Below are positions 34,901 through 45,324 of a DNA stretch of 64,000 bases, in pieces. The stretch lies in assembly GCA_028284345.1 (NCBI GenBank), contig JANQRY010000006.1, positions 310,001 to 374,000 of the forward strand. The letters run 5' to 3'. Position numbers and translations under genes: made by a program. Within the stretch, counting starts at the first letter, position 1. Every line of letters begins with the position of its first letter. The notes below the pieces were generated by a model. It saw only the letters and a program-made list of their open reading frames with translations, was not told the DNA's origin and did no database searches. The DNA comes from Hyphococcus sp. (lineage in GTDB: Bacteria > Pseudomonadota > Alphaproteobacteria > Caulobacterales > Parvularculaceae).

Positions 34901-34919
34901 GCAAACGGGAATAATGGCC

Positions 34920-35813
34920 ATGCGTATCTTAACTGTTTCGATTGCGGCGGGGCTCGCGGGTCTTGCGCCGGCGCTTGCGGACGATGATGCGCCGGCGGGA
35001 CCGACGCCGCAGCAAATCGTGGAAAACGCGCCGGCCGACGTCTGGCGGCCGATTGATCCGGAAAACGTCATTTACATGGATTTGCCCGCGGGCACGGTCA
35101 TTATTGAAATGCGACCAGACCTTGCGCCGGTCCATGCGCAACGGATCCGGGAACTCGTCCGGGAGGGTTTTTACAACGGCCTCCGGTTTCATCGCGTCAT
35201 CGAAGGGTTCATGGCCCAGGGCGGCGATCCGAAAGGCGACGGGACGGGTGGTTCGGACAAACCGGACCTGCCTGGCGAGTTCGTTCGCGACACCAGCGAG
35301 GTTGAAGGGTTTCGCGTCATCGGCCGCGACCGGATTGCGCCGCGGGTCGGTTATATTGACGGCATGCCCGTCGGGGCGCAGCCGGAATCCCTGCGCACGT
35401 TCACCACGGCCGCGCGCGTCAATCTCTGGCCGCTGCATTGTCCCGGCGTCATGTCCATGGCGCGGGCGACCGACCCGAACAGCGCCAACAGCCAGTTCTT
35501 TTTGATGATCGGCGACTCGCGCCTCAATCTCGACAAACGATACACGGCGTGGGGCTGGATCGTTGACGGGTTTGAAGCGACCCGGCGCATTTCCCGCGGC
35601 GAACCGCCGCCGCGCCCGACGCCGATCATGCGCGTGCGCGTCGCTTCGGATATTCCGGCCTCGGAACGTCGCGACATCGAGATCATGCGCACCGACAGCG
35701 AGACATTCATGCGATATCTGAAACGCCGGGGCGATGTTGACGAGACAGGCTACGTCAAGGACATCTGCGACATCAAAGTGCCGGCGCGCGTAGACGGGAA
35801 AATAGAACGATGA
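34920..35813 (+). CDS. Exported cyclophilin-type peptidyl-prolyl isomerase
   Basis: The 297-residue protein has a cleavable signal peptide (MRILTVSIAAGLAGLAPALAD), so it works in the periplasm. The cyclophilin core has FHRVIEGFMAQGGDP, NSQFFLMIGD and YTAWGWIVDG. About 60 residues are inserted between the two halves of the core (after TSEVEGFRVIG and before MSMARATD), and a C-terminal extension of about 60 residues with several acidic and arginine residues follows. The ATG at 34920 has GGGA nine bases upstream; another ATG six bases earlier is possible. Its stop overlaps the following cyclophilin gene by 4 bases. Confidence 0.88.
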   Translation: MRILTVSIAAGLAGLAPALADDDAPAGPTPQQIVENAPADVWRPIDPENVIYMDLPAGTVIIEMRPDLAPVHAQRIRELVREGFYNGLRFHRVIEGFMAQGGDPKGDGTGGSDKPDLPGEFVRDTSEVEGFRVIGRDRIAPRVGYIDGMPVGAQPESLRTFTTAARVNLWPLHCPGVMSMARATDPNSANSQFFLMIGDSRLNLDKRYTAWGWIVDGFEATRRISRGEPPPRPTPIMRVRVASDIPASERRDIEIMRTDSETFMRYLKRRGDVDETGYVKDICDIKVPARVDGKIER

Positions 35814-36259
35814 GCGAAAAACTGATTTTGAAGCTGGACACCGGCGATGTCACCATCGAGTTGATGCCGGACAAGGCGCCGAACCACGTGGCGCGGATAA
35901 AAGAACTTGCCGAGGAAGGCTTTTACGACGGCGTCAAACTGCACCGCGTCATTGACGGGTTCATGGCGCAGATGGGTTGTCCGAGGGGCAACGGCACGGG
36001 CGGCTCCGACAAGCCGAACCTCGCCGCCGAGTTCAACGACGTCACCCATCAGCGCGGGGTCTGCTCCATGGCCCGGGCGCAGGATCCGGACAGCGCTAAC
36101 AGCCAGTTTTTCATCTGCTTTGACGACGCGTCCTTTCTCGACGGCCAATACACGGCCTGGGGCCAGGTTGTCGACGGCATGGAAAACGTCGACGCCGCCG
36201 CCCGCGGCGAACCGCCGGCAAACCCTACAAAAATTATCTCCATGCGGGTCGCCGCCTGA
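35810..36259 (+). CDS. ppiB: Cytoplasmic cyclophilin-type peptidyl-prolyl isomerase
   Basis: A compact 149-residue cyclophilin without a signal peptide. It has LHRVIDGFMAQMGCPRGNGTGG, ARAQDPDSANSQFFICF and YTAWGQVVDGM, the catalytic arginine being in HRV. It isomerises Xaa-Pro bonds in the cytosol. The start overlaps the exported paralogue (ATGA), so cytosolic and periplasmic versions are made from one message, presumably after a gene duplication. Confidence 0.93.
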   Translation: MSEKLILKLDTGDVTIELMPDKAPNHVARIKELAEEGFYDGVKLHRVIDGFMAQMGCPRGNGTGGSDKPNLAAEFNDVTHQRGVCSMARAQDPDSANSQFFICFDDASFLDGQYTAWGQVVDGMENVDAAARGEPPANPTKIISMRVAA

Positions 36260-36275: not shown

Positions 36276-36293
36276 TCGTCATAAAACTGTGAC
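36276..36293 (+). promoter_or_regulatory. Candidate PhoB box
   Basis: TCGTCATAAAACTGTGAC fits the 18-base Pho box made of two 7-base CTGTCAT-like repeats separated by four A/T bases. The core GTCATAAAACTGT is identical to the recalled E. coli pstS Pho box over 13 bases. It lies 155 bases upstream of a PiT-like transporter gene and directly downstream of ppiB. The distance is long, so the transcription start would be in the GC-rich stretch 36300-36440. Confidence 0.6.
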
Positions 36294-36448
36294 AATAATG
36301 CGGGATGGACATTCGTCCTTCTCGTGAGGGCGGGTTTTACGCTGCGACACTTGCCGCTCGCCGCATTGGCGGCCGTGGGGCAAGGACTGGCGTCGACGAC
36401 GCTGCGAGGTGTTTTCTGCGCAGCGCCAACATCTAGCGGGGCCGGCGC

Positions 36449-37696
36449 ATGCAATTCGATCTCAGCATTTTTGCGATTATCGGTTTCATCCTTGCTGCAT
36501 ACGCCGTCGTAGGGAACGACGCGCTGCAAACGCTGGGCACGTTTATCAACTCCAACCGCCGCGTGCCCTGGTGGGCGCTGTTTCTGTTCGCCGCGACGAT
36601 TTTGGTCGTCGTTTTCTTTTTCGGCTACGTCACCGACGGCGGCGAACTGCGCAATCCCGACGGCAGCCCAAAGGCGTTGTGCGATTTCAGCGTCGGTTGC
36701 GACACGTCCTACGGGCGTCTGGGCAACACCGAAAAATATCCGCTGTTCGACCCCCAATGGTATCACACGCTGCCGCCCCTGATGCTGCTCGTCCTGACGC
36801 GCTTCGGCATCCCGGTGTCAACGACCTTCATGGTGCTCACGATTTTCGCCACCATGGCCGGCCTCAGTTCTATGCTGCAAAAATCACTGATCGGATACGG
36901 CCTCGCTTTCGTCGTCGGCGTTGCGATTTACGTTGTGTTGTCGAGAACGCTCGAACAGTTCTTCCGCCGAACCGAACATCAGCAACACGCGCCGGTCTGG
37001 GTCCTCTTGCAATGGGTGACGACGGCGTATCTCTGGTCGGTCTGGCTGATGCAGGACTTCGCCAACATCTTCATCTTCCTGCCTCGCGGCGACGGCGTAA
37101 CGCCGGGCTCGGGACTGAACCCGGCGGAAGCGATCGCCGCGGTCGGCGTCACCGTCCTGTTGCTCGGCTACACCTTCTGGAACCGGGGCGGCCCGGTGCA
37201 GCGGATCCTTCAGACCAAGACATCCGTTAAGGACATTCGCTCGGCGACGATCATCGACTTCACCTACGCGTCGCTTCTGTTTTACTTCAAGGAACTGAAC
37301 GACATTCCGATGTCGACCACCTGGGTCTTTCTTGGGCTTATCGCCGGGCGCGAATACGCTTTCGCTATTACGACGCGGGCGATCAGTTTCATGCGCACCG
37401 CGCGCGTGACCATGTCGGACTTGTCAAAGGCGTTTATCGGGCTTGTCATCTCCGTCGATATGGCGCGCGGCCTTCCCTGGCTGGCGCAAGGATTTGAAGG
37501 GGAGGGCGTGTTTCAGCCGCCGCCCCTGGCCGCACTGGCGCCGACGCCGAGTTTCGCGTGGTTTCTCATCATCATCAATTTGATGCTGATCCCGGTGGCG
37601 ATTTACCTGGCGCGCAATACGGTCCTGCGCATGGGCGCGCTGTTCGCCATTTACGTGGTCGCCGCCGCCGCCTTCATGCTGATGCCCATCGCTTAA
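36449..37696 (+). CDS. Divergent PiT-like (inorganic phosphate transporter family) membrane protein
   Basis: A 415-residue protein with about ten membrane segments. It shows internal duplication like PiT transporters: VGNDALQTLGTF (22-32) and PVSTTF (122-127) in the first half mirror QDFANIFIF (202-210) and PMSTTW (287-292) in the second. In true PiT proteins these are G-x-N-D-x-A-N and P-(V/I)-STT-H, so the Asp and STT cores survive but the His is lost. An extra loop with two cysteines (C78, C84) follows helix 2. A Pho box lies upstream. Phosphate transport is an inference from these features; the family assignment is distant. Confidence 0.65.
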   Translation: MQFDLSIFAIIGFILAAYAVVGNDALQTLGTFINSNRRVPWWALFLFAATILVVVFFFGYVTDGGELRNPDGSPKALCDFSVGCDTSYGRLGNTEKYPLFDPQWYHTLPPLMLLVLTRFGIPVSTTFMVLTIFATMAGLSSMLQKSLIGYGLAFVVGVAIYVVLSRTLEQFFRRTEHQQHAPVWVLLQWVTTAYLWSVWLMQDFANIFIFLPRGDGVTPGSGLNPAEAIAAVGVTVLLLGYTFWNRGGPVQRILQTKTSVKDIRSATIIDFTYASLLFYFKELNDIPMSTTWVFLGLIAGREYAFAITTRAISFMRTARVTMSDLSKAFIGLVISVDMARGLPWLAQGFEGEGVFQPPPLAALAPTPSFAWFLIIINLMLIPVAIYLARNTVLRMGALFAIYVVAAAAFMLMPIA

Positions 37697-37714: not shown

Positions 37715-38470
37715 TCAGTGGTGCCCGCCGGCGATATTGTTGAGGACAATGGCGGCGACGCCTGTCGCGACGCCAAGCTGCGCAAACAGATAGCCGCGTT
37801 TTTTCGGCGCCCGGGACGCGTGCGGACCGAGATGCACGATCACCACATAGATGAGGGCGCCGGCGGCGCCGCCGAGCATCGCCGCCATGGGCGGTCCTTC
37901 GGTGAGCCAGATCGCGGCGTTTGCGACCAGGGTTCCGGCGAAGGTGGTGAACGACGCGGCGAGGAAGGCGAGGACAATCGCATTGCCGCGCGACAGTCCC
38001 GTCTGCGCGAGCAGGAAGAACGCGATGATGCCTTCGGGAAACTCGTGCAGCATCAGCCCGCCCGTGGCGAGCCAGCCGGTGAACGGATCGTCCCGGAAGG
38101 CGGCGGCGTAAATCACGCCGTCGAGAAAAGAATGCGCCGCGAGCCCGATGATGGACGCGTAGCCGAATGTCAGCGCCGCCCCTTCCGGACTGCGACTGAC
38201 CGACAGCTGGACGGCGATGCCGATAAGCACCATGGCGGCGAACCCGCCGAAAACCCAGCCGATGGCGCCAAGAGAGAAATCGAGCGTTTCCGGAATAAGG
38301 TGAAGGGCGACAGCAACGCTCAACAGTCCGACCGCGAACGCCGAAAAATAGCTCGCGTGGCGTTCGACGACGGCGCCGAACAGGGCGACTGTCGCGATGC
38401 CCGCCGTGCTTATGGCGGCGGCGGCTGTACTGGCGGCAAGCCCGTCAATTTCAGAGAGCACCCCGAACAC
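37715..38470 (-). CDS. ZIP family metal transporter
   Basis: The 251-residue protein has about eight membrane helices. The two metal-site helices carry HSFLDGVIYAAAF and HEFPEGI, the ZIP signature, with the paired His and Glu residues that carry Zn2+ or Fe2+. It imports divalent cations into the cytosol. The start is GTG with AGGAAGGGG upstream. The gene is divergent from a CDF exporter across 243 bases containing a Zur-like dyad, so importer and exporter may be controlled from one site. Confidence 0.87.
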   Translation of the reverse strand: MFGVLSEIDGLAASTAAAAISTAGIATVALFGAVVERHASYFSAFAVGLLSVAVALHLIPETLDFSLGAIGWVFGGFAAMVLIGIAVQLSVSRSPEGAALTFGYASIIGLAAHSFLDGVIYAAAFRDDPFTGWLATGGLMLHEFPEGIIAFFLLAQTGLSRGNAIVLAFLAASFTTFAGTLVANAAIWLTEGPPMAAMLGGAAGALIYVVIVHLGPHASRAPKKRGYLFAQLGVATGVAAIVLNNIAGGHH

Positions 38471-38537
38471 AACGCAGTTGTCCCCTTCCTCACCGGACGC
38501 CCCACCGCGCCTGGATCGCCGCGCACACTAGCAAGGA

Positions 38538-38553
38538 TGATGTTATCACGTCA
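38538..38553. promoter_or_regulatory. Zur-like operator between ZIP and CDF genes
   Basis: TGATGTTATCACGTCA is an imperfect palindrome (12 of 16 positions symmetric) that resembles the Zur consensus AATGTTATAACATT (10 of 14). It is 68 bases upstream of the ZIP start and 161 bases upstream of the CDF start. No Zur gene is in the window, so the regulator is inferred. Confidence 0.38.
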
Positions 38554-38713
38554 CTCTTTTTTCGATGTGACCGGACAATTTGAAGCGAATTGAAATCGGC
38601 GCAAATCCACGTGTTCCGGTGGTGCGTATTTCTTGCGACCGGACGCTGTTCGGGACTAAAGTTGTCCCGGAAGGGGATCTTTTTACTCGCGTCCAAGAGG
38701 GTGTTGCCGACGC

Positions 38714-39697
38714 ATGGCCAATTGTGCGCATCAGGTGAACGAGGGCGAGCGAAACAGTCGCCGGCTTTTGCTGGCGCTGGGCGTCATCGTCACGTTCATG
38801 GTCGTGGAAGTCATTGGCGGCATTCTGTCTGGCTCGTTGGCGCTGCTCGCCGACGCGACCCATATGCTCACGGATGCGCTGGCCCTTGCGCTCGCCGCGA
38901 GCGCGCAGATTTTTGCCATGCGCCCGGCCGATTCCAATCTGCATTTCGGCTATCGCCGCGCGCAGGTTCTGGCGGCGTTCGTCAACGGCGTCCTGCTCGC
39001 GTTCCTGCTCGTCTGGATCATTTTTGAGGCGATAAAGCGCTTCGCGTCGCCGGTGGATATCAATACGCCGCTGATGCTGTGGGTCGCTGTCGCCGGTCTG
39101 GTCGCCAATATTGTCGCCTTCGCGATTTTGCACCGGGGCGCCGCCGATGATCTGAATGTGCGCGGGGCGATGCTGCATGTGATCGGGGATCTCTTGGGGT
39201 CCGTCGCCGCCATCGCCGGCGCGATCATCATCGCCGCGACCGGATGGGTGCGCGTCGACCCGTTATTGTCGATCCTTGTCGCGGTGCTGATCGGCGTGTC
39301 TGCGGTCCGGTTGATAAGAGAAACCGGATTCATTCTGCTCGAAGGCGCGCCGGATAATATTGATCCCCAACAGCTTGGCGACGGATTGAAAGCGACAGTC
39401 CCGGCGATCAAGGACGTTCATCATATTCGCATCTGGCAGATCACGCCTGATCAGCCCCGCATTACCTTGCATGCGTGTATTGATAATGCAGAAGACGCCG
39501 CCGCCGCGCTTCGTTCTGCGAAAGACTATCTCGCGTCGGAATTCGGCATCCGCCACAGCACCATTCAGATTGATATCGGCGGCGACTGCCCTGACAAATA
39601 TGACGATGCGCCGGCCTCGGCGTCCTCCGGCGCCGCCAAAACGGCCCAGCCGGCGCCGCGCTCGACCCCCGCCGCCGTCGCCGCGCACAACTCTTAG
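38714..39697 (+). CDS. Cation diffusion facilitator (zinc/cation efflux)
   Basis: A 327-residue CDF protein of the CzcD/ZitB type that exports Zn2+ and related ions with proton exchange. Six membrane helices are followed by a cytosolic metallochaperone-like domain (about 210-290). The transport site has HMLTD in helix 2 and HVIGD in helix 5. The C-terminal tail is rich in Ala and Pro and probably disordered. A short N-terminal CAHQ may bind metal. The stop overlaps that of the convergent ligase gene by 4 bases. Confidence 0.92.
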   Translation: MANCAHQVNEGERNSRRLLLALGVIVTFMVVEVIGGILSGSLALLADATHMLTDALALALAASAQIFAMRPADSNLHFGYRRAQVLAAFVNGVLLAFLLVWIIFEAIKRFASPVDINTPLMLWVAVAGLVANIVAFAILHRGAADDLNVRGAMLHVIGDLLGSVAAIAGAIIIAATGWVRVDPLLSILVAVLIGVSAVRLIRETGFILLEGAPDNIDPQQLGDGLKATVPAIKDVHHIRIWQITPDQPRITLHACIDNAEDAAAALRSAKDYLASEFGIRHSTIQIDIGGDCPDKYDDAPASASSGAAKTAQPAPRSTPAAVAAHNS

Positions 39698-45071: not shown

Positions 45072-45324
45072 GGCGCGGCCTTTCCGCTATTTCAAAGCGC
45101 AGGGCGCATCGTTTTTCTCGACGCGCCTCGAACTTCCAACGGATGCGCAGCCCGCCCTCTAGCGATCATTTTTCTCGTCCGCCAAGGCGTTCTCCGTGTG
45201 CGGCGCCGCGAATTCAAATCACGAAAACGGCCATTTTTCTCGGCTTTGGCGCGCTGTACGGTTCGCGCCGCCTAGATAGTCGAAAATTTCTGGAATTTCA
45301 ATGTGACAGGCCGATGACAGCCGC

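Follow-up and report, generated by a model that had tools for sequence, protein, structure and literature searches.

A divergent PiT-type membrane protein behind a Pho-box-like site, probably a phosphate importer of Hyphococcus and its relatives

We analyzed a stretch of 64,000 nucleotides from Hyphococcus sp. (here called the window), in which the gene of a PiT-like membrane protein, P0001, is preceded by a Pho-box-like site (Table 1). On the upstream side lies a tandem pair of cyclophilin-type prolyl isomerase genes (34911 to 36259); the first of these is long and may be one of the marine alphaproteobacterial AquaCyps (PMC4898713). On the other side, a ZIP-type zinc importer gene and a cation efflux (CDF) gene (37715 to 39697) adjoin the transporter gene, and the order transporter, ZIP, CDF is maintained in the loci L001, L002, and L004. 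None of these neighboring genes, whether cyclophilin, ZIP, or CDF, gave a clue to the function of P0001.

The Pho-box-like site is found 173 to 156 bases 5' of the ATG at 36449. The first-pass annotation had described it as an 18-base box sharing a 13-base core with the Escherichia coli pstS box, and comparison with the reference box CTGTCATAAAACTGTCAT of E. coli K-12 pstS, taken from NC_000913.3, confirmed the coordinates as well as the identity of the core, GTCATAAAACTGT, which covers positions 36278 to 36290 and is the same in 13/13 bases. Even with one mismatch tolerated, this core occurs only once in the 64 kb, against 0.01 occurrences expected by chance. The complete site, TCGTCATAAAACTGTGAC, was also the top match to CTGTCATAWAWCTGTCAY within the 64-kb window, agreeing at 15 of 18 positions, while the runner-up agreed at 14. 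The latter site, CTGTCATCGGCCTGTCAC, is located on the minus strand at 45303 to 45320, about 230 bases 5' of a panB-like gene.

Table 1. Features of the transporter locus, in window positions
Feature	Position	Strand	Remarks
Pho-box-like site TCGTCATAAAACTGTGAC	36276-36293	+	13-base core match; conserved upstream of relatives
CDS of PiT-like membrane protein P0001, 415 aa	36449-37696	+	Homologues use the same start
N-terminal repeat, residues 5-174	36461-36970	+	Half aligning to the second PiT repeat
N23-D24 codons	36515-36520	+	Corresponds to Asn-Asp of the PiT signature (PiT2 D28; PMC3126765); invariant in 73/73 relatives
PVSTT-F motif, residues 122-127	36812-36829	+	F127 at PiT His position
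C-terminal repeat, residues 182-348, derived	36992-37492	+	Alone without PiT profile match
QDFAN, residues 202-206, derived second signature	37052-37066	+	D203 invariant; W199 at PiT2 H502 position
PMSTT-W motif, residues 287-292	37307-37324	+	W292 at PiT His position
C-terminal extension, about two helices, residues 349-415	37493-37693	+	Present in part of the family only

As a single-sequence query, P0001 had no match in Pfam, NCBIfam, PHROGs, or PDB, and none among phage and plasmid records. A scan of contigs nevertheless yielded 240 stretches encoding relatives, and the best 80 of these 240 were retained, coming from Parvularculaceae, Hyphomonadaceae, Maricaulaceae, planctomycetes, an Opitutales bin, Microcystis, and many SAR11 genomes. 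No description of this family was found in the libraries and papers covered, in agreement with the earlier proposal that it forms an undescribed branch. In the tree, the planctomycete genes fell inside the Parvularculaceae group (the 16-row set containing both had a support of 98/97), which suggests gene transfer between phyla. The genes next to the Microcystis members, a NUDIX gene among them, offered no functional clue.

Invariant in 73/73 aligned relatives were N23, D24, Q27 to G30, P122 to T125, F127, K145, W199, D203, and K257, together with R264, P287, S289 to T291, R301, E302, and D324, while position 292 was occupied by tryptophan in 67 of the 73. From the same 73-row alignment, the first-half signature can be written as V-(G/A)-N-D-(A/S)-(L/I)-Q-T-L-G and that of the second half as QD(F/L)AN, the S-T-T motifs being PVST(T/S)F and PMSTTW. 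GND (residues 22 to 24), PVSTT (122 to 126), QDF (202 to 204), and PMSTT (287 to 291) were all present in P0001 where the first-pass annotation had placed them, and its observation that phenylalanine and tryptophan replace the PiT histidines held for F127 and W292 throughout the family to the extent just given. The N-terminal repeat consists, in this order, of a long helix with N23-D24, a second helix, a broken hairpin helix with PVSTT, and a long helix. The PiT-type internal duplication that had been claimed was supported by the order of the motifs and by the way the helices are arranged in the models, whereas its sequence signal was weak, the two halves aligning in register in hhalign with an E value of only 0.012.

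We then turned to profiles. The PHO4 profile (PF01384), proposed as a check by the first-pass annotation, matched 13 of 29 relatives with a best E value of 8.5e-6, but all below the gathering cut-off (25.4 bits for the best member, compared to the required 33.7), and P0001 itself had no match. No other Pfam model was matched by more than 2 of the 29 members. One Opitutales member (L023:2594-3586) scored 27.4 bits against Voltage_CLC, over the cut-off of 24.8, but an identity as Voltage_CLC was discarded, as no further member matched and the structure search gave it no support. Conversely, a PHO4 search over 150 genomes itself detected a family member, in genome G144, with an E value of 4.9e-5. 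When the whole family alignment was compared to 50 PiT proteins by hhalign, an E value of 7.4e-6 and a score of 51 were obtained, while block-shuffled controls (n = 60) scored at most 31 and the reversed controls at most 18. The N-terminal half of the family aligned to the second PiT repeat with an E value of 1.6e-7 (probability, 93.9; score, 52), over a stretch that starts with the Asn-Asp motif and extends to the end of the S-T-T motif. The C-terminal half alone did not match the PiT profile in hhalign. D24 and D203, the counterparts of D28 and D506 of PiT2, are both invariant (73/73), the equivalence of D203 being derived from motif order and not from a profile match.

Comparison with PiT structures, which the first-pass annotation had also suggested, pointed in the same direction. 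A first AlphaFold2 model, of P0001 itself (29 alignment rows; pLDDT, 82.8), had no Foldseek match in PDB or in the viral library. Since it was built on a shallow alignment and includes the nonconserved C-terminal extension, this model was set aside after the next one had given a match. A second model (m1cdd8ff128ae) was made for a compact relative, L040, which is 41% identical to P0001, from 69 rows including P0001, and reached a pLDDT of 90.4 and a pTM of 0.88. It matched chains A and B in the crystal structure of TmPiT (6l85), the sodium-dependent phosphate transporter of Thermotoga maritima, with E values of 1.3e-4 and 4e-4, a probability of 1.00, and a TM score of 0.62. This was the sole significant match in PDB, the next one having an E value of 0.48, and 6l85 was also the only entry found when the PiT profile was searched against PDB sequences. 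The L040 model shows a PiT fold for the family core, and we infer the same predicted fold for P0001.

Among known systems, the family is close to PiT/SLC20/PHO4 (PF01384, TC 2.A.20), to which E. coli PitA, human PiT1 and PiT2, and TmPiT (6l85) belong. Shared with them are the fold of the family core, an invariant aspartate in each half, and the succession of Asp helix, helix, P-x-S-T-T hairpin, and helix, twice over. In contrast, the family does not reach the PHO4 cut-off, and its second half is strongly derived. PiT proteins carry a signature with the core GANDVANA in both halves, and H502 of PiT2 is needed for transport (PMC3126765); the family has GANDVANA in neither half, and the position of H502 (D minus 4) is occupied by W199 in 73/73 members. 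Similarly, histidine follows S-T-T in PiT (PVSTTH, PVSSTH, and PSSSSH in the PiT alignment), whereas F127 and W292 stand at this place in the family. As the aspartate pair is kept but the signatures are lost, the family is not a standard member of PiT, though it is built like one. A second type of secondary phosphate transporter, NptA/SLC34 (the Na+/Pi cotransporter family, PF02690), differs from the family in that none of the 29 members matched it in Pfam.

We next addressed the conservation of the regulatory site. A Pho-box-like site upstream of the family gene is conserved across relatives in the order. The best Pho-box score in the 200 upstream bases was higher (P = 8e-16) for 57 family genes than for 122 other open reading frames, taken from the window and from loci of Parvularculaceae, and it was also higher for the 14 family genes of Parvularculaceae alone (P = 4e-10), although both P values overstate independence because the upstream regions of the family are related to each other. 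For many individual upstream regions in the order, none of 200 shuffles equaled the score. In planctomycetes, Microcystis, and SAR11, a comparable upstream box was generally not seen, L040 having a match of 14/18. Elsewhere in the genome, the strict pattern was found 32 times, compared to 26 times in the reversed control, and this genome-wide count was left out of the evidence because of the small excess. A tandem Pho-box-like site was observed 5' of a TonB-dependent-receptor-like gene of the same genome (contig C2, L159:7683-7711).

The genome also encodes the regulator. PhoB was identified on contig C7 (339035 to 339703) with 353.5 bits, above the cut-off of TIGR02154 (NCBIfam), its gene lying in a row with those of a PAS-HisKA sensor kinase (phoR) and PhoU. 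Between the sensor kinase, PhoU, and PhoB genes of this row (L155:8714-11716), pst genes are absent, and the row is apparently a Pho signaling operon stripped of its transporter.

We then compared the distribution of the family with that of other phosphate importers. The census covered three kinds, namely, the family, PiT, and PstC. In our own genome (98.5% complete), neither PHO4 nor PstC was found by profile search; a single weak PstC match sits in a molybdate-type ABC operon and was rejected as a molybdate-type permease on the basis of sequences and gene order. Among 150 genomes of the order, 61 encode the family, 33 encode PiT, and 121 encode PstC over the cut-off. The family and PiT occurred together in only 4 of the 150, a tendency to mutual exclusion (P = 1e-4), and 24 of the 29 genomes lacking PstC had the family (P = 4e-7), both P values being uncorrected for shared ancestry. 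Of the 61 genomes with the family, 37 also had PstC. In 23 of the 150, our own included, the family was the only one of the three kinds. A further set of 24 family genomes of several phyla, reached from other records and including planctomycetes, Microcystis, the Opitutales bin, and SAR11, lacked PHO4 in 23 cases (completeness is not given, and several of these genomes are partial), compared to its presence in 99 of 150 genomes of the phylum. None of the three kinds, PstC being counted over the cut-off, was found in three genomes of the order, and another phosphate importer must therefore exist there. One of these three (G005) belongs to the same genus as ours and is 100% complete.

The family probably brings in phosphate, because PiT-like fold and motifs, a conserved Pho-type site, and the position as sole importer of the three kinds in 23 genomes come together. 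From sequence and modeling, we consider it rather likely that P0001 is a divergent PiT-type phosphate importer that is activated by PhoB and replaces Pst and PiT in this lineage; substrate, direction of import, coupling ion, and activation over repression are what we infer within this reading. Import of inorganic phosphate would most likely proceed by ion-coupled secondary transport. Each of two inverted repeats would contribute one helix with an invariant aspartate (D24 and D203, respectively) as well as one broken P-x-S-T-(T) hairpin; as in PiT, the site for the ion and the phosphate would be made of all four elements. Since aromatic residues take the place of the PiT histidines, coupling or selectivity may differ. 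PhoB would switch the gene on under phosphate shortage, and the protein would stand in for PstSCAB and PiT. Its physiological slot would be that of PstSCAB, a Pho-box-controlled phosphate supply, and the family goes with the absence of PstC; however, PstSCAB is an ABC importer, while the family is predicted to have a single-component secondary-transporter fold without binding protein or ATPase. Pit has been described as constitutive (PMC12421899), in contrast to a family that has upstream Pho-box-like sites and is often the sole importer of the three kinds tested. That the family replaces PstSCAB both as importer and as the phosphate-inflow input to PhoU/PhoR, so that phoR-phoU-phoB works without Pst, is an extension that we regard as doubtful.

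The SAR11 loci offer a different context. There, the family gene is found downstream of an aquaporin gene on the same strand in 14 loci, in most of which an arsC-type reductase gene precedes the aquaporin gene (identified through Pfam MIP and LMWPc, with NCBIfam arsC below the cut-off). The aquaporin gene adjoins the family gene at two distinct chromosomal positions, one represented by L062-like loci and the other by L077. Loci with a MIP aquaporin directly upstream include L046, L048, L057, L059 to L062, L068, L072, L074, and L077. In L062, a gap of about 270 bases lies ahead of the family gene, and two small unnamed membrane open reading frames precede the arsC-like and aquaporin genes. A SAR11 survey describes arsenate reductase and aquaporin as an arsenic module that becomes more frequent with phosphate scarcity (PMC6426599). 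Genes of these two kinds, LMWPc_ArsC and aquaporin, are those directly upstream of the family gene, whereas the survey names only reductase and aquaporin as arsenic related and, in its available text, makes no mention of the adjacent transporter. The arrangement fits a phosphate/arsenate gate next to the arsC-aquaporin module.

This neighborhood, in which the aquaporin gene recurs at two genomic positions, and the altered neighbors of the binding site (F127, W292, and W199) would also suit a protein of the same fold that carries a phosphate analogue or another oxyanion (arsenate, phosphite, or sulfate) or that exports phosphate or arsenate. We consider this unlikely, since the Pho-box-like sites in the order and the anticorrelation with PiT and PstC suggest nutrient phosphate, and many SAR11 members, like the examined members of the order Caulobacterales, are not part of an ars cluster. 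Moreover, an importer of phosphate is also expected beside arsC, because importers let arsenate in.

Less likely still, the protein could be a low-affinity importer of phosphate whose gene is repressed by PhoB during starvation, as reportedly happens to the Sinorhizobium meliloti pit operon. A Pho box alone is compatible with activation or repression, and PstC could take over under starvation in the 37 of 61 family genomes that have it; however, in our own genome, where neither PiT nor PstC was found, shutting off the sole recognizable importer would make little sense. That the Pho box and the resemblance to PiT are both coincidental and P0001 is an unrelated membrane protein would agree with the lack of a single-sequence family match and of a structural match of the first model, but it is very improbable given that the PiT evidence (profiles and the L040 fold) and the box evidence are independent lines in agreement.

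Over much of the ocean, phosphate is a limiting nutrient for growth, and the gene, which has no family name in the libraries searched, occurs in SAR11, Microcystis, and planctomycetes alike. If the protein is a PiT-type importer, it would explain phosphate uptake in bacteria without Pst and PiT and would give the SAR11 arsenate module an adjoining gate for phosphate. With the conserved histidines gone, the family lends itself to testing which residues PiT truly requires, and phosphate sensing by PhoR-PhoU-PhoB in genomes where no Pst was found becomes testable.
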